Shown: piece after piece, positions 5,439 through 42,456 of the stretch | Layout: each line of letters opens with the position of its first letter | How positions within the stretch are numbered: the first letter of the stretch is position 1 | Assembly: GCA_013823855.1 (NCBI GenBank) | Contig: PNMW01000044.1 | Coordinates: 1 to 64,000, forward strand | Source: Lysobacteraceae bacterium | GTDB lineage: Bacteria > Pseudomonadota > Gammaproteobacteria > Nevskiales > Nevskiaceae | DNA length: 64,000 nucleotides | Direction: 5' to 3' | The notes under the pieces: generated by a model | The model's database searches: none | Told to the model about the DNA's origin: nothing | The model's input: the letters and a program-made list of their open reading frames with translations, nothing else | Program-made: the position numbers and the translations under genes

Positions 5439-8249
5439 TCAGCCCGGCACCGGGCGGGCGGCGATCAGCGGCGCCAGCAGCGGATGGCTGTCGCGCAACT
5501 GCAGGCGCAGCGCGGCGATCACCGCATCGAGCTGCCGCTGGCCGCCGCCGCGGTCACCGCTTGCCAGCCGCCAGCGGGCCCGCGCGCCCTGCAGCGCCAG
5601 CCGCCGGGGGTCGTCTTCCGGCAGCGTTCCAGCGATCGCTTCACCGGCATCGAGCGCCGCGCCGGCGGCATCGAGGCGGCCGAGCTGCAGCAGGCTTTCG
5701 GCCTGCAGGCGGCGCAGGATCGTCGCCCGCAGCGGCGGCGCATCTTCCAGCGAGGCCAGGATGGCGAGACCGCGTTCGACCAGCGGCAGCGCCTCCGCCG
5801 GTCGCCCGAGCTGCAGGCGGGCGCTCGCGAGGTTCGACAGCGGCGCCGTGGCCTCGAAGGTCTGGCCGCTGCCGCGCTGGTCGTGGCGGGCGAGCAGATC
5901 GGCGAACACCGTTTCGGCCTCGGCGTGGCGGCCCTGCAGGTTGAGGAGGTAGCCCAATTCGTTCTGCACATACAGGCTGTCGGTTGCCATCGCGCCGAAG
6001 CGCGCCTCGATGCGCCGGGCCGCCTCGCGCACCGCCGCCACCGCCTCGTCGCGACGGCCCAGCGCATCGAGGCCGTGGGCGAGATTGACCTGCACCTTCA
6101 GCGTCGTCGGATGATCGGCGCCGTAGACCGCCCTGAGGTCGGCCCAGGCCCGGCGGGCATCGTCGACGCCGCGCTCGGGCCGGCCGGCGACCCGGTGGAT
6201 GACCGCGATCAGGCCGCCGGCCTCGCCGGCGATCCCGTTCGGCTCGCCGAGCCGGCGGTTGGCCTCGTCGCGCAGCGCCGCCAGCGGCGTCAGAAAGGCG
6301 GCATCGCTGCCTTGCCGGGACTGCGCCTCCAGCAGCCGCAGCCGCGTTTCCAGCGCCGCCACCGGCTGCGAGTGCTGATCGGCGAGCAGGCTTTCGAGCG
6401 CCGTCACCGCTTCGCCGTCGCGCTCGGCGGAAATCAGCACGGCGGCACGCTCCAGACGGGCCTTGTCGCGTTCGGCCGACGCCGCCGCCGACACTGCGCG
6501 CGCGATCGCCCGATCGAACAGGGCGATCGCGGCGTCGTAGTCGCCGAACTCGTGGCGCAGCACGCCGAGCGTGGTCAGCACCGATGCGGCGACGGCCGGC
6601 TGGTCGGCGAAGCGGCTGTCGACGGTCCGCGTGGCGGCATCGATCGCTGCCCGCACCGTCACTTCCGGCGCCCCCGGCGGGCGCTGCAGCGGATTGGCGG
6701 CGTTGAGCAGATCCTCGTTGACGAAGCGGTTGATCGCCTGCGCCTTGGCCGCTTCGAGTTCGGCGCGGCCGCGCGCCTGGCTGGCCTGCCAGGCCATGTA
6801 CGAGGTCGCGACAATGCCGACCAGCAGGGTTGCCGCCAGCGGAATCAGCCGGCGGCGCAGCGCGCCGAGCCGGGCCAGCCGCGCGTTCAGGCGTTCCGCT
6901 TCGGCCTTTTCGGCCGCCTGTTCGGCCAGCCGGGCAGCGCGCTGCGGCAGGCTGCGCAGCCGGCGCGCCAGTTCGGCGGCATCGCGCAGCCGTTCCTCGC
7001 CGCGCCCGGCCGCAGCGGCGGCGACGTCCTCGCGCAGCAGCGGATCGGCGATGTCGCCTTCCCAGCCGGCGGTCAGCGGCCGTTTCAGGTCGCCGACGAT
7101 CATCTGGTACAGCACCACGCCGAGCGCGTAGAGATCGGTCTGCACGGTCGGCTGCTGGCCGGCGAGCAGTTCCGGCGCGTAGTAGAACGGCGTGCCACTG
7201 CTGTCGCCGCCCGCCTGGTCGGCGTCGCCGGCGACCCGGGTGAAGCCCAGCCGGGTGATCTCCAGCCGTTCGAGGCGGGCCAGATCCATCAGCCGGCCGC
7301 TGCCGAAATCGCCGAGCCGGACCTGCGCCCGGCCGGCAGCATCGAAGCCGACCAGCAGATTGGCCGGCTTCAGGTCCTTGTGCAGCACGCCGGCGGCATG
7401 CGCGGCGGCCAGCGCTTCGGCGGCCTGCGCGACCAGCTCCAGACGCTCGACGAGCGGCACGCCGGCGAGGCCGCCACGGGTCTCCGCCCACTGCGGCAGC
7501 GCGCCACCGGCGGCGTACTCGGCCTCGATGAAGTACGGCGGCTCGTCGATGTTCCAGTCGAGCAGGCGGATCAGGTCCGGCCGCTCGCCGTAGGTGTCCT
7601 TGAGCACCCGGAACAGGGTGATCTCGCGTTTCAGCGCGGTCAGGCCGCTGGCATCGAGCGCGAACTTGAACACCCGCCGCTCGCCGGTCTTGCTGTGGAT
7701 GGCCAGCCAGACTTCGCCGAGCCCGCCGCTGCCGAGCTGTTCGCGGAGCTTCCAGTGCGGACGCAGCGGCAGGCTGTCGCCCGGCGACAGCTGCAGCTGC
7801 GGCGCACTGGCGGTCATCGGCGATGCCACCTCGACGGTGACCGGCGCCAGCAGCCGGTAGCCGTAGCCGTGAACGGTGCGGATGATCGTCTGCTGTTCGT
7901 CGCCGAGCGCCTGGCGCAACCGGGCCACCGCCTTGGTCAGCACCGATTCGGACAGGATGCGGCCCGGCCAGACGCCGTCCTGCAGCTCGTCCTTGGTGAC
8001 CACTTCGCCGGGGTGGCGGAGCAGGAACAGCAGCAGTTCGAGCGGCTTCGGCTCCAGCCGCGACAAGGCACCGCGCACGCTCAGCTCGAGCGAGCGGCTG
8101 TCGAGCTGGCAGTCGGCGAACCGGTAGATCAGGTCGCGGCGGCGGGCCGGAATCGGGGTTTCAGGCGCGGGCACGGGAGGGCGGACGGCGGCGGTGGCTT
8201 GCGGATATCGGGCAGGCCGGACCCTAGCACAGGCGTCCACGTCGCTCAT
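5439..8249 (-). CDS. Winged-helix / Ser-Thr kinase / TPR membrane sensor (copy 1)
   Basis: A 936-residue multidomain regulator. Residues ~40-135 are an OmpR/PhoB-type winged helix (FLLRHPGEVVTKDELQDGVW, then LTKAVARLRQALGD and GYGYRLLAP). Residues ~165-430 are a Hanks-type kinase with an intact glycine loop (LGSGGLGEVW), lysine in VFKFAL, HKDLKPAN (290-297, HRD Arg replaced by Lys), DFG (314-316) and APE (358-360). A membrane helix (~468-488, LIPLAATLLVGIVATSYMAW) leads into a long TPR-like C-terminal domain (~500-936). This is known architecture in Xanthomonadales: a DNA-binding head and kinase in the cytoplasm and a probable periplasmic TPR sensor. The start at 8249 is the first ATG before the winged helix; its ribosome site is weak. 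It is divergent from the delta-60/barrel gene, and the gap carries 11-bp repeats. A paralogue lies at 20652-23396. Confidence 0.9.
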   Translation of the reverse strand: MSDVDACARVRPARYPQATAAVRPPVPAPETPIPARRRDLIYRFADCQLDSRSLELSVRGALSRLEPKPLELLLFLLRHPGEVVTKDELQDGVWPGRILSESVLTKAVARLRQALGDEQQTIIRTVHGYGYRLLAPVTVEVASPMTASAPQLQLSPGDSLPLRPHWKLREQLGSGGLGEVWLAIHSKTGERRVFKFALDASGLTALKREITLFRVLKDTYGERPDLIRLLDWNIDEPPYFIEAEYAAGGALPQWAETRGGLAGVPLVERLELVAQAAEALAAAHAAGVLHKDLKPANLLVGFDAAGRAQVRLGDFGSGRLMDLARLERLEITRLGFTRVAGDADQAGGDSSGTPFYYAPELLAGQQPTVQTDLYALGVVLYQMIVGDLKRPLTAGWEGDIADPLLREDVAAAAAGRGEERLRDAAELARRLRSLPQRAARLAEQAAEKAEAERLNARLARLGALRRRLIPLAATLLVGIVATSYMAWQASQARGRAELEAAKAQAINRFVNEDLLNAANPLQRPPGAPEVTVRAAIDAATRTVDSRFADQPAVAASVLTTLGVLRHEFGDYDAAIALFDRAIARAVSAAASAERDKARLERAAVLISAERDGEAVTALESLLADQHSQPVAALETRLRLLEAQSRQGSDAAFLTPLAALRDEANRRLGEPNGIAGEAGGLIAVIHRVAGRPERGVDDARRAWADLRAVYGADHPTTLKVQVNLAHGLDALGRRDEAVAAVREAARRIEARFGAMATDSLYVQNELGYLLNLQGRHAEAETVFADLLARHDQRGSGQTFEATAPLSNLASARLQLGRPAEALPLVERGLAILASLEDAPPLRATILRRLQAESLLQLGRLDAAGAALDAGEAIAGTLPEDDPRRLALQGARARWRLASGDRGGGQRQLDAVIAALRLQLRDSHPLLAPLIAARPVPG

Positions 8250-8289: not shown

Positions 8290-8333
8290 GTTTGCGAATC
8301 GTCGGAAATTGGTCGGAAGTTGGTCCGGACTCC
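8290..8333. promoter_or_regulatory. 11-bp-period direct repeats, putative winged-helix operator
   Basis: GTCGGAAATTG (8301-8311) is followed head-to-tail by GTCGGAAGTTG (8312-8322), then a partial copy GTCCGGA (8323-8329). A looser copy, GTTTGCGAATC, precedes at 8290-8300. The period is exactly 11 bp. PhoB/OmpR-type winged helices bind direct repeats at this spacing. The site lies 41 bp upstream of the sensor gene and about 110 bp upstream of the divergent gene. That this protein binds here is inferred. Confidence 0.5.
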
Positions 8334-8444
8334 TCGGCGGCCGGCGCCCAGGATCGCGGCGCTGTCGACCGGCCCGGTCCCTGCAGTCGCGCCACGGGCC
8401 CGGTACGTCGGCAATGCCTCGCTCACCGCCATCCGGGACCCGCC

Positions 8445-11354
8445 ATGAAATCCGCCACGATCGTCGCGCTGCTGAGCGCGCTGTCCGTCCTGTCCACGCA
8501 GGGCGCCTCCGACAACAAGGCGCGCCAGCCCGCAGCCCGCACGCCTGCCAGCCAGGCCGTCGCCAGCGACATCGGCCGCTGCATCGCCGGAGCGATCCCC
8601 GGCACCCTGGACATCGAATTCGGCACCGACGGCCGGCGCAGCCGCGCGATCGGCGCCGACAACAGCTTCAGGCCGACGCTGCTGCTCGGCGACGACGACC
8701 GCGTGCAGGTTGCCGCCGGCGGCAACTTCGTGCGCGTCCGCGCCGGCAGCCCGTTCCCGGTCAACGAGTCCGATCCGGCGCTGTTCCAGTTCACCGTCGC
8801 CGGGCTCGACGACAGCAGCTTTCCGGCCGGCGGCACCGGCAACGGCATCGCCGATGCCGACAGCCTCGACGGCCGCGACTTCGTCGGCGGCTACGCCGAC
8901 GCCGTGCGCCAGCCGGACGGCAAGCGGGTGCTGACCGCCAGGCTCGGCATCCAGGGCGGCTTCGCCAATGTCGACAGCGCCGTGCTGCGCCTGAACCCGG
9001 ATGGCAGCCGGGACGGCAGCTTCGGCAGCGATGGCGGCGTGACCCTGCCAAAGCCGCTGCCGGACAACGAGGTCGGCAGCCTGGTCGGGGTCGCGGTGCA
9101 GGCCGATGGCCGCATCGTCGGCATCGGCAGCATCAGCCAGACCACCGGCCAGTCGATCGGCTATTTCCTGGCCCGCTTCAATGCCGACGGCACGCTCGAC
9201 GACGGTTCGGCCCGCGACAGCACCCCCGGCGACAGCTTCGGCAACAACGATCCCGACGGCGTCGACGGCGTGGTGCTGAACCGCAGCGAAGCGGCGTTCG
9301 CGCTCAGCAGCACCGGCTACCGGGTGCGGGTGCAGGGCACGCGGATCGTGGTCATCGACACCACCGATGCGGTCAATGAAGTGCGCCTGTTCGGCCATGC
9401 CGCCGATGGCCGCCTCGATGCCGGCTTCGGCAGCGGCGGCGTGGTCCGCGACATTCGCGGCGACGGCTTCTGCATCCGCCCGGACCTGCTGGTGCAGCCG
9501 GACCGGAAGCTGCTGTTCACCGCCGAGTGCGTGATCGGCCGCCTGAACGCCGACGGCAGCCCGGATACCGGCTTCGGCGGCGACGGCTTGGTGTTCCGCG
9601 ACGCCAGCAATACCCGCGAGCTGACCAGCGGCCTAGCGCGGACGGCGACCAAATGGCTGGTGCTGCAGCCGGACGGCAAGTTCCTGACCGGCGGCAGCAC
9701 CAGCGACGAGATCACCGAAATCGCCCGCTTCCATGCCGACGGCCTGCCCGATACCGGCTTCGGCGACGACCGCGTCCAGATCCCGCTGGCCGGCTCGCTG
9801 ATCTTCGGTGGCCTGGCCGTCGACCGTCAGGGCGCGGTGCTGGTCGGCAATCTCGACAACCGGGTCAGCAGCGCCGCCAGCATCGAGCTGGCGCGGCTCT
9901 GCGGCGGCTTGAGCGTCGACACCCGGCCCGATCCGTTCTCGTTCGACGATCGCATCGACGTGCCGCTGAGCACCGAGCAGCGCTCCAACGTCTACACCGT
10001 CTCCGGGCTCGCCGACACCGTGCCGGCGCTGATCCGGGTCGAGAACGGCGAGTACTCGGCGGGCTGCGCCGGCGAAGGCGAGCCGCTGTTCGAGACCTCG
10101 ATGGAAAAGGTCTACAACGGCATGCGCATCTGCGTGCGCCACACCAGTGCCGCGACCCCGGGCACCGCAGTGACCACCACGCTGATCCTCAGCGCCGGGC
10201 CGGACGAGTTCCGCGAGGACTTCACCACCGTGACCGCCGGTGGTGCGCCGGCGAACCAGCTGCCGGTCGCCAGCGACGACAGCGCGACCACCGAAGCCGG
10301 CCGCGCCGTGCTGGTCGACGTGCTGGGCAACGACCGCGATGCCGATGGCGATCCGCTGACCATCGTCGAGATCGGCGCGCCGGCCAACGGCACGGCGGAA
10401 CTGCGCGACGGCCGCATCCGCTACACGCCGGCCGCCGGCTTCACCGGCACCGACCGTTTCATCTACCGGATCAGCGATGGCCGCGACGGCCCGCGCGAAA
10501 CGCTGCGCGCTGGCGGCCCGGTCAGCGGCAAGGTCGACAGCAGGGTGGCCGGCGCGGTCGACGGCGACAGCCGCGCGGCGACGGTCACCATCACCGTCAC
10601 CGCCGTGGCGCCGCCGGTCGATCCTGTCGATCCGGGCGATGGCCATGTCGGCGGCAACGCCCGGCGCGGCGGCGGCGCCTTCGGCGGCGCGCTGCTCGGC
10701 GGACTCGGCCTGGCGGCACTGCTGCGCCGTCGCCGCAAGACGCTGCTGGCGCTGGCCGGCGGCCTGCTGGCGCTGACCGCGAACGCCGACGACGCGCCGC
10801 CGCGCTGGTATCTCGGGGTCACCGACGGGCTGGTCTACAGCGGGGCTTCCGGCGACGGCAACCGGGCGATCGCCAACGGCGGCCACCGTGGCAGCGCCCG
10901 GCTTGACACCCGCGATTTCAGCTACGGCGTCTACGCCGGCCGCGAGCTGCTGCCCTGGCTGGCGCTGGAGGCGGGCTACGACAACATCGGCCGCTACGGC
11001 GCCACGTTCAGCGGCAGCAGCGACGACCCGGCGCGCTTCGCGGGCGACCTGCTGGCCGCGATGCCGGCCGGCGGCGATGCCTACTTCCTGCGCCTGCGGC
11101 TGAATCAGGCGATCGGCGCCGACTGGCAGGCCTTCGCCCGGGTCGGCGGCGCCTTCATCCACTCCGAATCGCGGATCACCGTCAACGGCACCACCTATCG
11201 CGGCAACGACGATCTCGGCGCGCTGCAGGCCGGGCTCGGCGTCCGCCATGCGCTCGATGCGCGCTGGGCGGTGACCGGCGACACCGGCGCCTACTGGCCG
11301 GCGCGCGGCCGCCATGCGCTGCGCTTCGGCGTGGCGCTGGAGTGCCGCTTCTGA
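8445..11354 (+). CDS. Delta-60 repeat / cadherin-like protein fused to an outer-membrane-type beta-barrel
   Basis: A 969-residue exported protein. The signal peptide (MKSATIVALLSALSVLSTQG) is followed by a region with at least five delta-60-type repeats (about residues 180-435; for example RLNPDGSRDGSFG, HAADGRLDAGFG, RLNADGSPDTGFG). A cadherin/Ig-like domain lies at about 600-680 (VDVLGNDRDADGDPLTIVE, FTGTDRFIYRISDG). A Gly-rich stretch, one hydrophobic helix and RRRRK at about 736-765 look like a GlyGly-CTERM sorting tail, normally the extreme C-terminus. Here the frame continues into a second hydrophobic, signal-like segment (LLALAGGLLALTANA) and a ~185-residue OmpA-like barrel ending in Phe (VALECRF). 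The barrel part has no ATG, GTG or TTG start of its own near the junction. It is either a true fusion or two genes joined by loss of a stop. It is divergent from kinase sensor copy 1, which may control it. Confidence 0.8.
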   Translation: MKSATIVALLSALSVLSTQGASDNKARQPAARTPASQAVASDIGRCIAGAIPGTLDIEFGTDGRRSRAIGADNSFRPTLLLGDDDRVQVAAGGNFVRVRAGSPFPVNESDPALFQFTVAGLDDSSFPAGGTGNGIADADSLDGRDFVGGYADAVRQPDGKRVLTARLGIQGGFANVDSAVLRLNPDGSRDGSFGSDGGVTLPKPLPDNEVGSLVGVAVQADGRIVGIGSISQTTGQSIGYFLARFNADGTLDDGSARDSTPGDSFGNNDPDGVDGVVLNRSEAAFALSSTGYRVRVQGTRIVVIDTTDAVNEVRLFGHAADGRLDAGFGSGGVVRDIRGDGFCIRPDLLVQPDRKLLFTAECVIGRLNADGSPDTGFGGDGLVFRDASNTRELTSGLARTATKWLVLQPDGKFLTGGSTSDEITEIARFHADGLPDTGFGDDRVQIPLAGSLIFGGLAVDRQGAVLVGNLDNRVSSAASIELARLCGGLSVDTRPDPFSFDDRIDVPLSTEQRSNVYTVSGLADTVPALIRVENGEYSAGCAGEGEPLFETSMEKVYNGMRICVRHTSAATPGTAVTTTLILSAGPDEFREDFTTVTAGGAPANQLPVASDDSATTEAGRAVLVDVLGNDRDADGDPLTIVEIGAPANGTAELRDGRIRYTPAAGFTGTDRFIYRISDGRDGPRETLRAGGPVSGKVDSRVAGAVDGDSRAATVTITVTAVAPPVDPVDPGDGHVGGNARRGGGAFGGALLGGLGLAALLRRRRKTLLALAGGLLALTANADDAPPRWYLGVTDGLVYSGASGDGNRAIANGGHRGSARLDTRDFSYGVYAGRELLPWLALEAGYDNIGRYGATFSGSSDDPARFAGDLLAAMPAGGDAYFLRLRLNQAIGADWQAFARVGGAFIHSESRITVNGTTYRGNDDLGALQAGLGVRHALDARWAVTGDTGAYWPARGRHALRFGVALECRF

Positions 11355-20651: not shown

Positions 20652-23396
20652 TCAGCGGCCGGACGCGTTGAGCACCGTCTCGAACGGTTCGATGTCGCTG
20701 GCGGCGACACCGGCCGCGCGCATCGCGACGACCGACTCGGCCAGCGCCTGCCGGCTGGCGGCGCTGCGATCGCGCTGGTGGACGATGCGCGCCCTCAGCG
20801 CCGCCAGCAGCTCGGCCCGGCCGGGATCGCTGGTGGTGGCCTGCAGTGCCTTGGCGTCGATCGCCGCCAGCACCCGCAGCGCTTCGGCGTGATGGCCGGA
20901 TTCGGCAGCCAGGTCGGCCAGCCCGAAGCGCGCCGCCTGCACCAGCGAGGACTGGGCGCCTGAAGTCTTCACCAGCCCGGCTTCGGCGGCACGCAGGTTG
21001 TCGACTGCCGCGTCGCGCTGGCCCAGTTCGGACTCCAGGAAACCGAGATTCATCCGCTCGACCAGCGTGTACTGGTTGCCGGCCCCCCAGCGCCGCTGCG
21101 CGCGGGCCAGCACCTCGCGCTGGATCGCCAGCGCCGCCGCGCTGTCGCCGGCCAGCGACTGCATGCGGCCGAGGCTGGACAAGGCCGAGATGGTCCGCTG
21201 GCCGTCCTCGCCTTCCAGCTGCTCGAACGCCGTGACCGCCGCCTGCGCGTAGGGAATCGCTTCGCCGACGCGATCCTGGGCGCGCAGGGCATTGGCCAGA
21301 TTCAGGCGGGCGCTGGCCAGCGCCGCGCCGCCGGCATTGGCCTCGGTGTAGCGCTCGCCGGACAGCATTCCGCGGGCGATCAGCTCGGCTTCGCGCGGCC
21401 GCTGCAGGCGCAGCAGGCAGCCGGCGATGGTGCCTTCGATATGCGCGGCCGCTGCGGCATCGTCCGGGTGCAGCAGAAGGTTCAGCCGCTCGGCATGGCG
21501 GTAGCGGGCCAGTGCCGCTTCCGGCTCGACCTTCTGGTAGTGCCAGGTGCCGTGGGCCAGCTGGGCCTTCAGCGCGATCTCGCTGGCCGCCTGCAGCCGG
21601 GCGCCGGCGGCGGCATCGCTGCGCGCCAGCTGCGCCCTGGCGTCGTCGAAGCGCGACAGGAAGCTCAAGGTCAGCGCCCGCTCGTAGCCGGTCAGCACGG
21701 CCTCGTCCGACAGCGGGCCGAGCACCGCGTCGAACAGGGTCAGCGCCCGCGCCAGCTGCGGCTCGGCGAGGTCGTAGCTGGCCAGCGCCCGGTAGGCGCG
21801 GCCCAATGTGCGGCGCAGCCCGGCCTCGACCAGCGGCGCGCCATCGAAGCGATCGCCGAGGCGTTCGGCGGCGCGGTCGATCACTTCGCGCAGCGGCGGA
21901 TTGCGCTGGTACCAGCCGGTCGCGGCACCGCCGGCACCGGCGGCGCCGAGCAGGTCGTCGGTGAGAAAGCGATTGGCGGCTTCGGCGAGCGCGGCCTGCT
22001 GGCGCGCGGTATCGCGGGCCAGCCCGGCCTGGTGCGCCTGCCACAGGCTGGCGCCGAGGCCGAGCAGCATCAGCACGCCAGCCGCCAGCATCCACGGCCG
22101 CCTCGCCTGGCTGCGTTCGATGCGCCGCTCGGCCGCCGTGGCGCGGGCTTCGGCATCGAGCAGGCGCCGCGCCGCCTCGCGACGTCGGCCCCGGTCACGC
22201 AGCCGCTGCAGCAGCGCGGCCACCGTTTCCAGCCGCTGCTGCGGCTGGCCGGCGGTGGCGGCGGCGATGTCGGCGCGCACCTCGGCGTCGGCGATGTCCT
22301 GCTCCCAGCCGGTCGCCATCGGCCGTTTCAGATCGCCGACCAGCAGCTGGTAGAGGATCAGCCCGAGCGCGTAGACATCGCTCTGCACGCTCGGCGCCTG
22401 GCCGGCGATCAGCTCCGGTGCCAGATACAGCGGCGTGCCGTCGGCGGCCCGCGCGGCATCGGCGACGGTGAAGCCGAGCCGGGTGATGCCGAGCGCGTCG
22501 AGCCGCTCCGGCTCCAGCAGCCGGCTGCTGCCGAAGTCGCCGAGCTTCGGCTGCCAGGGCAGCGTTTCGCCGGCTGCCGCGCGCGGCGCGACCAGCACAT
22601 TGGCCGGCTTCAGGTCCTTGTGCAGCACGCCGACCGAATGCGCCGCCGCCACGGCGTCGGCGATCGCCAGGAACAGGGCGATGCGCGCTTCGCCGTCGAG
22701 CGCCGCCAGATGGCCCTGTGCCGCCCAGGCCGCCAGATCGACGCCGCCGTCCTCGGATTCGAGGAAGAACGGCGGCGCCTCGAAGTTCCAGTCGAGCACC
22801 CGCACCAGGTCGTCGCGCGGCCCCAGCGCCTCGCGGAGCAACCGCGACATGGTGGCCTCGCGTTTGAGTGCCGCCAGGCTTTCGCCATCGCTGCCGAACT
22901 TGTAGATGCGCGCCTCGCCAGTCTTCGTGTGGCGGGCGCGCCAGACCTCGCTGCCATCGTGGGCACCGAGCAGGGATTCGAGCCGGAAGGCCTCGCGGCC
23001 CGGCACCGGCGTGTCGACCGCCAGCGCCAGCCCGGTGTGCAGCCGGCGGCCGACGGCGATCCGCTCGACCGGCCCGGCCAGCCGGTAGCCGATCCGCGGC
23101 AAGGTGCTGATCCGCGCGCTTTCCCGCTCGCCGAGCGCCTTGCGCAGCTTGGTCACGGCATTGGCCAGCACGTTGTCGACGGTCGGCCGCCCGGCCCAGA
23201 CCGCCTCCAGCAGTTCCTCGCGGCTCACCACCTCGTCCGGGTGGCGCAGCAGTTCGGCGAGCACCTGCAGCGGCCGCTGCTCCAGTTCGACCGGCTGGCC
23301 GTCGACGCTCAGCGACTGGCGCGACGCGTCGTACTCCGCCGCGCCGAAACGGTAGCGGTACAGCGGTGCGTCGCGGCGCGGCTCCCTGCGTTCCAT
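20652..23396 (-). CDS. Winged-helix / Ser-Thr kinase / TPR membrane sensor (copy 2)
   Basis: A 914-residue paralogue of the sensor at 5439-8249 with the same domain order: winged helix (~15-110, LLRHPDEVVSREELLEAVWA, RIGYRLAGP), kinase (~138-400), membrane helix (~434-453) and TPR-like region to the end. The catalytic loop HKDLKPAN (259-266), DFG (287-289) and APE (326-328) are intact, and the ATP lysine is in RIYKFG. The glycine loop is degenerate (LGAHDGSEVW instead of GxGxxG), so activity may be reduced or altered. In both copies the HRD Arg is Lys. It is divergent from a lipoprotein gene, with an 11-bp-period repeat in the gap, and 90 bp downstream of the ppk start. ATG 23396 opens just before the winged helix. 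Confidence 0.9.
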   Translation of the reverse strand: MERREPRRDAPLYRYRFGAAEYDASRQSLSVDGQPVELEQRPLQVLAELLRHPDEVVSREELLEAVWAGRPTVDNVLANAVTKLRKALGERESARISTLPRIGYRLAGPVERIAVGRRLHTGLALAVDTPVPGREAFRLESLLGAHDGSEVWRARHTKTGEARIYKFGSDGESLAALKREATMSRLLREALGPRDDLVRVLDWNFEAPPFFLESEDGGVDLAAWAAQGHLAALDGEARIALFLAIADAVAAAHSVGVLHKDLKPANVLVAPRAAAGETLPWQPKLGDFGSSRLLEPERLDALGITRLGFTVADAARAADGTPLYLAPELIAGQAPSVQSDVYALGLILYQLLVGDLKRPMATGWEQDIADAEVRADIAAATAGQPQQRLETVAALLQRLRDRGRRREAARRLLDAEARATAAERRIERSQARRPWMLAAGVLMLLGLGASLWQAHQAGLARDTARQQAALAEAANRFLTDDLLGAAGAGGAATGWYQRNPPLREVIDRAAERLGDRFDGAPLVEAGLRRTLGRAYRALASYDLAEPQLARALTLFDAVLGPLSDEAVLTGYERALTLSFLSRFDDARAQLARSDAAAGARLQAASEIALKAQLAHGTWHYQKVEPEAALARYRHAERLNLLLHPDDAAAAAHIEGTIAGCLLRLQRPREAELIARGMLSGERYTEANAGGAALASARLNLANALRAQDRVGEAIPYAQAAVTAFEQLEGEDGQRTISALSSLGRMQSLAGDSAAALAIQREVLARAQRRWGAGNQYTLVERMNLGFLESELGQRDAAVDNLRAAEAGLVKTSGAQSSLVQAARFGLADLAAESGHHAEALRVLAAIDAKALQATTSDPGRAELLAALRARIVHQRDRSAASRQALAESVVAMRAAGVAASDIEPFETVLNASGR

Positions 23397-23528
23397 CGGT
23401 GATTTCCAGAAAAAGTGCCGAGGCGTTCGCGCGGTTATCGCGTGCAGGCCCGATGCGGTCAACCGGCGCGGCACCGGACCTGCCACCGGCTTGTCCCGCA
23501 AGCCGCTGAACGAAATAGGAAATTCCAG

Positions 23529-23548
23529 CCGTTAGGGTTCCGTTAGGG
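23529..23548. promoter_or_regulatory. 11-bp-period direct repeat, putative winged-helix operator
   Basis: CCGTTAGGG occurs twice (23529-23537 and 23540-23548), joined by TT, so the period is 11 bp. It lies in the 236-bp divergent gap between kinase sensor copy 2 and the lipoprotein operon, 85 bp upstream of the lipoprotein start. The spacing matches the repeats beside sensor copy 1, though the half-site sequence differs. Binding by sensor copy 2 is inferred. Confidence 0.45.
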
Positions 23549-23632
23549 CGGCGTGATGGCGTTGTCCCGGGGGCTGCGGCTGACTGCGGCCCATCGCTGA
23601 ACCGCCCACCGCTGTCGACAGGACCGCCCGCC

Positions 23633-24610
23633 ATGACCGATGCCCGACCCTCTCCGCCGCGCCCTGATCGCCGCGCCGCCGCGCTGGCCGTCGCCGCGCT
23701 GGCCGTCGCCGCGCTGCTCGCCGCCTGCGGCAACGGTGGCGACAGCGCGCCGGCCACCGGTGCCGCGCCAGCCGTTGCATCCGCCGCCGCGAAAGCCGGA
23801 GCGGCCGGCAGCGGTGACGACGACCTGCGTTGCCCGGCGAAGATCAGGACCCGGGTCGAAGGGCCGGACATCGCCGGCCTGCGCCTCGGCCTGAGCCGCG
23901 ACGAGGCGCTCAACCTGGCGCGCTGCGCGCAGCCGGAGGCCGTGGTCGCCGACGAGAACCGCTTCCTGTCCGGCCTGAACACCGGCGCGATGAAGCTCGG
24001 CCCGCAGCAGTTCACCGTGCAGTCCGGCGACACCGCCGACTGCAAGTTCAGCAGCCTCAGCGACGCCCAGGCCTGCGGCCTCGGCCAGCGGGTCTGGAAG
24101 CACGTCGCCGAATCGGTGACCGTGGCGACACCCGGCGTGCCCGGCCGCGAGACTGCCGTCGCCATCTGGCGTACCCAGAACTACCGGCCCGGCGAGCAGC
24201 CGGCCGCGACCACGGTGCAGCAGGCGCTGATCGACAAGTACGGCCCGCCGCAGCGCACCCAGAAGTACGACGGCAACCGGCCGTGGGTGCAGATCTGGTG
24301 GCTGCGCGATCCCGGCGGCCAGCCGCTGTCCGAGCAGAACCCGCTGGCCGGTCGCTGCCCGACGATCCAGGCCCACGCCAACGTGTCGCAGTCCTGGAGC
24401 GAGGCCTGCGGCCTGACCATCGCCGCGATGCTGACCCTGGCGCCGGAAAATCCGCTGCTGGTCGCCGATCTCAGTGTCGGCATGGCCGATCAGGCCAGGC
24501 TCTACGCCTACGGCACGGCGATGCAGGAGGAAATCCTGGCGCTGGAAAAGCAGCGCCAGGAAGGCGAAGCCAAGGCCGCCGCCGAAGGTGCGGCGGCGCC
24601 GAAGCTGTGA
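23633..24610 (+). CDS. Hypothetical lipoprotein
   Basis: A 325-residue lipoprotein. The signal has a long Ala-rich hydrophobic core and lipobox LLAAC (Cys32). An Ala/Gly/Ser linker leads to a folded domain from about residue 65, including GLRLGLSRDEALNLARCAQPEAV, which resembles short 'recruitment by position' modules of other exported proteins, and RETAVAIWRTQNYRPGEQPAA. Five further cysteines suggest periplasmic disulfides. It ends in a charged helix (MQEEILALEKQRQEGEAKAA). Function unknown. It is first of four genes reading away from kinase sensor copy 2; the next starts 8 nt later. Confidence 0.75.
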   Translation: MTDARPSPPRPDRRAAALAVAALAVAALLAACGNGGDSAPATGAAPAVASAAAKAGAAGSGDDDLRCPAKIRTRVEGPDIAGLRLGLSRDEALNLARCAQPEAVVADENRFLSGLNTGAMKLGPQQFTVQSGDTADCKFSSLSDAQACGLGQRVWKHVAESVTVATPGVPGRETAVAIWRTQNYRPGEQPAATTVQQALIDKYGPPQRTQKYDGNRPWVQIWWLRDPGGQPLSEQNPLAGRCPTIQAHANVSQSWSEACGLTIAAMLTLAPENPLLVADLSVGMADQARLYAYGTAMQEEILALEKQRQEGEAKAAAEGAAAPKL

Positions 24611-41981: not shown

Positions 41982-42093
41982 CCTGCTTGTGGCGCCCGCC
42001 ATTGCCGCACTGCGATACGGCCTGGCCCGCGAGACTCGCCGCCGGTCAGTCCGGCTGCCTAGAATCGGCCCGACCCACGCCGGAGCAAAGCCG

Positions 42094-42456
42094 ATGCAAA
42101 GCCAGGCCACGACCGTCAGCAACTACCTCGCCGAGCTCCCGGACGATCGCCGCAGCGCGCTCGATCGGCTGCGCGCCAGCTGTCTGGCCGCGTTGCCGGA
42201 TGCCGTCGAAAGCATGGACTACGGCATGCCGAGCTATCGGCGCCACGGCCAGATCGAGATCGCCTTCGCGAGCCAGAAGCAGTACATCGCGCTGTATCTG
42301 ATGAAGCCGGCAGTGCTGGCCGCGAACAAGGCGGCGCTGAAGGGCTTGAGCGTCGGCAAGGCCTGCGTCCGCTTCGCGAGCCCGGAGCGGATGGATTTCG
42401 CGCTGATCGAGCGGCTGCTCGCCGAATCGCGCGATTCGCCGGACCTGCCCTGCTAG
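42094..42456 (+). CDS. DUF1801 family protein
   Basis: A 120-residue cytoplasmic protein of the DUF1801 (YdhG-like) group. It shows VSNYLAELPDDRRSALDRLR, the core ESMDYGMPSYRRHGQIEIAF, QKQYIALYLMKPA, and GKACVRFASPERMD. These proteins have a frataxin-like fold and no settled function. The stop codon TAG shares its last base with the first base of the inverted-repeat element at 42456, so the C-terminus abuts an insertion and may have been altered. Confidence 0.87.
   Translation: MQSQATTVSNYLAELPDDRRSALDRLRASCLAALPDAVESMDYGMPSYRRHGQIEIAFASQKQYIALYLMKPAVLAANKAALKGLSVGKACVRFASPERMDFALIERLLAESRDSPDLPC

Follow-up and report, generated by a model that had tools for sequence, protein, structure and literature searches.

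Period-11 direct repeats as a probable operator of a membrane-attached winged-helix Ser/Thr kinase regulator

In a window of 64,000 nt, the whole stretch of DNA that was analysed, four head-to-tail units with an 11-bp period at positions 8290–8333 lie between a gene for a winged-helix (wHTH) protein kinase and a divergent gene for an exported protein. We consider it likely that these repeats are the operator of the adjoining membrane regulator, which would be a CadC/ToxR-like activator with an inserted kinase domain, and that each paralogue has an operator of its own. The support for this interpretation is comparative. The strongest evidence that the repeats are real is their conservation: across 12 sites that belong to regulators of the same recognition-helix class, the three units hold a mean column information of 1.38 bits, against 0.47 and 0.51 bits in the flanks.

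The repeat site and its neighbouring genes

The site, read on the forward strand, is built on GTCGGAAATTG (8301–8311) and GTCGGAAGTTG (8312–8322), both supported by Tandem Repeats Finder (8301–8325, period 11, 92% matches, score 43) and by conservation beside orthologues. They are preceded by the loose upstream unit GTTTGCGAATC (8290–8300), of which two A columns are kept in the 12 class sites, and followed by the partial, target-proximal unit GTCCGGACTCC (8323–8333), which overlaps a −35-like element. The original prediction had described exactly such repeats with a partial third and a loose fourth unit, and this description is confirmed. The score of 43 is by itself not decisive, because many of the 91 Tandem Repeats Finder rows in the GC-rich window equal or exceed it. 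In a self-match scored +1/−1, the window has no other period-11 run of at least 15 than this site (one run of that strength exists at period 8), and 20 dinucleotide shuffles of the window yielded a mean of 0.0 such runs; the second-strongest period-11 run, with a score of 13, lies at about 42065–42103. The two-unit pattern, with up to three mismatches, has a single occurrence in the assembly of the source genome, G000 (3.87 Mb, 87 contigs, about 88% complete). Two other candidates found no support. One was an RNA feature, as Rfam at gathering thresholds gives only one tRNA in the window. The other was a large regulon in G000, where six matches at up to three mismatches were obtained, two inside the site and four elsewhere at three mismatches, with two for the reversed control pattern; the pattern TTCCGACNATTTCCGACNA has a 10-bp period and its matches were not counted.

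The regulator gene (5439–8249, reverse strand; start at 8249, 8240 or 8174, judged by eye) encodes a winged helix, a protein kinase domain, one hydrophobic segment and a TPR part. A winged helix had been predicted at the N-terminus, and a Trans_reg_C domain was indeed found there (residues 64–133, 7851–8060; Pfam E 2.4e-16), with CadC as its best match among solved structures (5ju7, E 2.8e-14). The kinase domain (residues 167–455, 6885–7751; Pfam E 2.1e-26) contains the motifs VFKF, HKDLKPAN and DFGSG, which we take to be the catalytic Lys, HxD and DFG motifs of a Hanks-type kinase. The sole stretch with hydropathy above 1.5 (residues ~467–487, 6789–6851) is a likely membrane span, and the TPR part recognized by Pfam is C-terminal to it. 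The stretch TGCTAGGGT (8221–8229, reverse strand) may serve the regulator gene as an extended −10; similar stretches were seen by eye in G005 and G014, the latter in another reading frame.

The source genome has five matches to the wHTH–kinase(–TPR) architecture at E≤1e-100. Copy 2 of the regulator, with wHTH, kinase and TPR domain matches, lies in the same window (20652–23501, reverse strand). Beside it are 11-bp repeats, CCGTTAGGGTT CCGTTAGGGCG (23529–23550, forward strand; p 0.01), similar in G005 and G002; these differ from the units at 8290–8333 and face a divergent open reading frame (23633–24610, forward strand) whose product has, by eye, a lipoprotein-like N-terminus.

The gene divergent from the first regulator (8445–11354, forward strand) encodes, by domain matches, a 969-aa delta-60/Ig-like/OmpA-like barrel protein with an export-type N-terminus (by eye). 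A GlyGly-CTERM-like tail, consisting of a glycine run, a hydrophobic stretch and arginines, was noticed by eye in mid-protein (window ~10630–10740), and the OmpA-like barrel comes after it, as if two genes had been fused. The delta-60 gene is longer in G013 (L073 7057–12123) and G002 (G002:C6 327791–332470), where P0002 matches are split into pieces and a more distant delta-60 part stands in front.

Period-11 repeats in the family and promoter-like phasing

A scan of upstream regions in related genomes, proposed in the original prediction, was carried out on wHTH–Ser/Thr kinase–TPR genes by scoring the best local self-match at periods 7–19, with 200 dinucleotide shuffles as the reference. Of the 73 regions in the discovery set, which include G000:C10, a match to the wHTH alone, 18 passed p≤0.01 at period 11 (other periods, 0–5). 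Of the 46 held-out regions, 40 from newly searched genomes and six from genomes of the first search, 14 did so (other periods, 0–3). Pooled, period 11 passed in 32/119 regions and other periods in 0–7, with period 15 the highest; of the 87 regions that fail p≤0.01, some have weaker repeats by eye and others none. Six loci with a partial N-terminus or little upstream sequence were left out (G010:C549, G010:C221, G009:C249, G009:C265, G001:C459 and G031:C47). The enrichment persisted when one random member was drawn per wHTH cluster, with period 11 in a mean of 15.6 of 66 clusters at 80% identity (other periods, at most 3.8) and 6.9 of 31 at 70% identity (at most 2.7). Of 401 control segments drawn from the window and from eight of the larger loci, four passed. 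Among control kinases without a wHTH (33 loci, after two of 35 were dropped as too short), two passed at period 11, one of them in G000, and four at period 18; the Fisher p for wHTH kinases versus these is only 0.009. At G000:C29 near 18192 (L010), period-11 repeats, GCCCTGAAGTC, lie just upstream of the assumed start of a kinase without recognizable wHTH (p 0.005).

The repeats stand in a fixed phase to promoter-like elements that point to the divergent gene. Beside the delta-60 gene these are a predicted −35-like CGGACT (8326–8331, forward strand), overlapping the last repeat unit, and a predicted −10-like CAGGAT (8349–8354, forward strand) 17 bp after GGACT, both of them poor matches to consensus. 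Across the 46 sites with p≤0.055, 11 of the 20 occurrences of GGACT read towards the divergent gene fall within 12 bp of the target-proximal repeat end, and its reverse complement has none near that end. With GGA[CT][TG] or GGAGT at the target-proximal repeat end as anchor, present in 21 of these 46 sites, YANNNT follows at a spacing of 17 bp in 10 sites, of 18 bp in three and of any other value from 8 to 35 in at most two; the permutation P of 0.0002 is the floor of the test, for an anchor picked post hoc and with close relatives entered as separate sites. A looser anchor followed by.ANNNT at 16–18 bp fits 17 of the 19 class sites (proximal, distal and third sites together), 14 at 17 bp and three at 18 bp. 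The two that do not fit, as framed, are G079 and C_G010; G061 and G062 have their anchor shifted by exactly one 11-bp unit. By a crude rule for signal-peptide-like segments, repeats at p≤0.055 accompany 38 of the 77 divergent frames with such a segment, 8 of 40 other divergent frames and neither of two regions in which no frame was found. A circuit that controls the exported delta-60 protein, as originally proposed, is supported by comparison and can be refined: the promoter-like pair faces the exported gene, not the kinase gene.

Because the last unit and a weak −35 overlap, with a weak −10 lying beyond, the regulator would most likely activate the divergent exported gene. The same operator and protein could also work in the opposite sense, with the bound regulator repressing the exported gene and releasing it on a signal, and repeats that overlap a predicted −35 are in a workable position for a repressor. 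We regard repression as unlikely: the −35 and −10 are poor in the manner of activator-dependent promoters such as afsS, as described in the accessible part of a published account, and both CadC and AfsR are activators.

Recognition helices, orthologues and candidate targets

Repeat sequence is associated with the recognition helix of the adjoining regulator. The SVLTK[AC] helix class occurs with GTCGGAAATTG-like units in G000, G005, G013, G002, G010 and G036 (47% identity in G036), and within the held-out set the genes of G080, G062, G061 and G070 (49%, 46%, 58% and 42% identity) combine near-identical helices with the same kind of unit. Other classes go with other units on the target strand: ASLAKAV with TTTCAGGAATC, NVLANAV (which includes copy 2 of the window) with CCGTTAGGGTT, SENTLSNA with ATTCGTGAGAA and VDHVLATA with TTGAAGGTTTC; some helix classes are without any repeat. 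In the ASLAKAV copy of G014 the score chose another stretch, although the sequence does contain TTTCAGGATTT-like units. For held-out genes, of which one of the 46 had no parsed helix, we asked how well a motif borrowed from a discovery gene ranks. At a helix identity of at least 0.75 (22 of 45 genes, one of them uninformative with a motif of less than 22 bases) the mean rank fraction was 0.26, compared with an expectation of 0.5 (t-test p 7.6e-4). At 0.5–0.75 (21 genes) the motif was not predicted (mean rank fraction ~0.56), and below 0.5 two genes gave a mean of 0.09. This association may in part reflect common ancestry of the DNA; against descent alone, the units are conserved well above their flanks across the 12 class sites. 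A possible residue-to-base link, in which the SVLTKTM helix (G079, G068) goes with GTAGG instead of GTCGG, is based on two sites, and we do not claim it.

The association also bears on the rival reading that the repeats belong to a different regulator, such as a response regulator of the PhoB/OmpR type. PhoB/OmpR response regulators bind 11-bp direct repeats near the −35, so their fold would suit such a site, and regulators of this type are possibly present in these genomes. Repeats that vary by paralogue and track the recognition helix of that same paralogue are unexpected for an outside factor, and we hold this reading to be quite improbable.

A search of 61 genomes found five same-genus orthologues of the regulator, at 75–91% identity. 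The original prediction had named a lack of repeats beside orthologues as evidence against itself. The outcome favoured the prediction, as the repeats are kept beside four of the five, in G005, G013, G002 and G010 (in G002 at about 400 bp upstream of the first codons that align, beyond the 300 bp used for the statistics). In the genome of the fifth, G014, no delta-60 homologue was found at E≤1e-20; there the kinase, 83% identical, adjoins a photolyase gene and the repeats are absent. Across the six orthologous loci, site and target are kept or lost together. The delta-60 target and its site (A) are found jointly in five of the seven genomes searched. A second site of the same type (B) precedes a gene whose product has, by eye, a lipoprotein-like N-terminus, in G013, G002, G010 and G014, 6 to 8.4 kb past the 3′ end of the kinase gene, and this target and site are found jointly in four of the seven. 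G014 has only B, and G000 and G005 have only A, where absence from G000 is no proof because that assembly is about 88% complete. G036 has neither target, but another exported gene there has a site next to it. At G002:C11:117886, G013:C69:3407 and G010:C73:22777 a third similar site precedes, by about 300 bp, a gene of exported type, with a product of 1133 residues in G002 and G010 and a relative of it in G013. A second exported gene thus carries the site in related species, and perhaps a third does so too. The original idea that the sensor binds its own intergenic region has comparative support; the site is not limited to that region. Named relatives in another collection are Nevskia, other gammaproteobacterial MAGs and Sinimarinibacterium flocculans. 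In the isolate S. flocculans DSM 104150 (locus L164, 49% identity) a site of this type is present, and TAGCGT follows its GGACC at 17 bp.

These comparisons weigh on a reading in which the repeats serve chiefly for autoregulation of the kinase gene. Repeats do lie upstream of the kinase in every significant region, which follows from the sampling design. Mainly autoregulatory repeats are a weakened explanation because G014 keeps the kinase without them; in addition, sites B and C (the third site) precede exported genes kilobases away and the promoter-like phasing is directed away from the kinase, so that we give this reading little credence. A site that serves both the exported gene and the kinase gene may nevertheless exist. 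An origin of the tandem repeats by chance, in DNA that is GC-rich, for which the 91 Tandem Repeats Finder rows of the window, many as high-scoring, might speak, is contradicted by the conservation and the period-11 enrichment and is hardly credible.

A proposed circuit and known regulators

The reading that we favour, an operator of the adjoining regulator, suggests the following mechanism. Copies of the N-terminal winged helix would sit in tandem along one face of the DNA, bound to the 11-bp units that run head to tail, with the last unit overlapping the weak −35 (NGGACT) and the weak −10 placed 17 bp on, and the regulator would, without leaving the membrane, activate the divergent exported gene. 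Gating of the regulator may fall to its TPR part, past the predicted membrane span, and to the kinase domain that separates the wHTH from the membrane. Among paralogues, recognition helix and operator would have diverged jointly, giving private sensor–operator–client sets. More speculatively, and with rather less confidence, each paralogue could be a complete transmembrane circuit in which the TPR part beyond the membrane reads the state or export of the client and the kinase, by phosphorylating the winged helix of the same chain, switches tandem binding to a private 11-bp operator. Duplications in which helix and operator changed to match each other might then have produced insulated sensor–operator–client lines in one lineage. 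With operators and clients predicted to the base, the function of a set of membrane Ser/Thr kinase regulators becomes directly testable, and the paired helix and operator changes offer a natural series for studying how new lines of regulation emerge free of cross-talk.

No description of a wHTH–Ser/Thr kinase–TPR fusion was found in the open-access literature, as covered by titles and the openings of abstracts, with most subscription papers outside this range; the accessible part of a survey of membrane transcription regulators names no Ser/Thr kinase fusion (PMC10269533). The regulator shares its family of DNA-binding fold with PhoB/OmpR response regulators, and a phospho-acceptor receiver domain is not among its Pfam matches. 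EmbR, according to the available part of one report, is a DNA-binding regulator of the OmpR type that a Ser/Thr kinase controls (PMC4601284). EmbR and its kinase are two proteins, whereas here both parts are in one chain, which may be phosphorylated. With CadC and ToxR the regulator has in common an N-terminal wHTH of the same family and one predicted membrane span, and the TPR part that follows the span may correspond to the C-terminal periplasmic sensor of such regulators. It is set apart from them by a Ser/Thr kinase domain that follows the wHTH ahead of the membrane span and by its TPR C-terminus; we know of no kinase insertion in CadC or ToxR. The direct repeats of ToxR are given as TNAAA-N5-TNAAA in the part of the source available (PMC8517210). 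SARP regulators such as AfsR (OmpR-type wHTH, NOD and TPR) combine wHTH and TPR in one chain, as here, and AfsR can serve as a model for the mechanism. The present regulator, unlike these, is without a BTA domain after the winged helix (none among its eight Pfam families at E≤0.001) and has a kinase domain and a membrane span. As far as the accessible text of one study goes, AfsR has two 11-bp direct repeats at a promoter with a poor −35 and a poor −10, and SARP repeats end 8 bp from the −10, compared with 15 bp to the predicted −10 at the present site (8333 to 8349) (PMC10936776).
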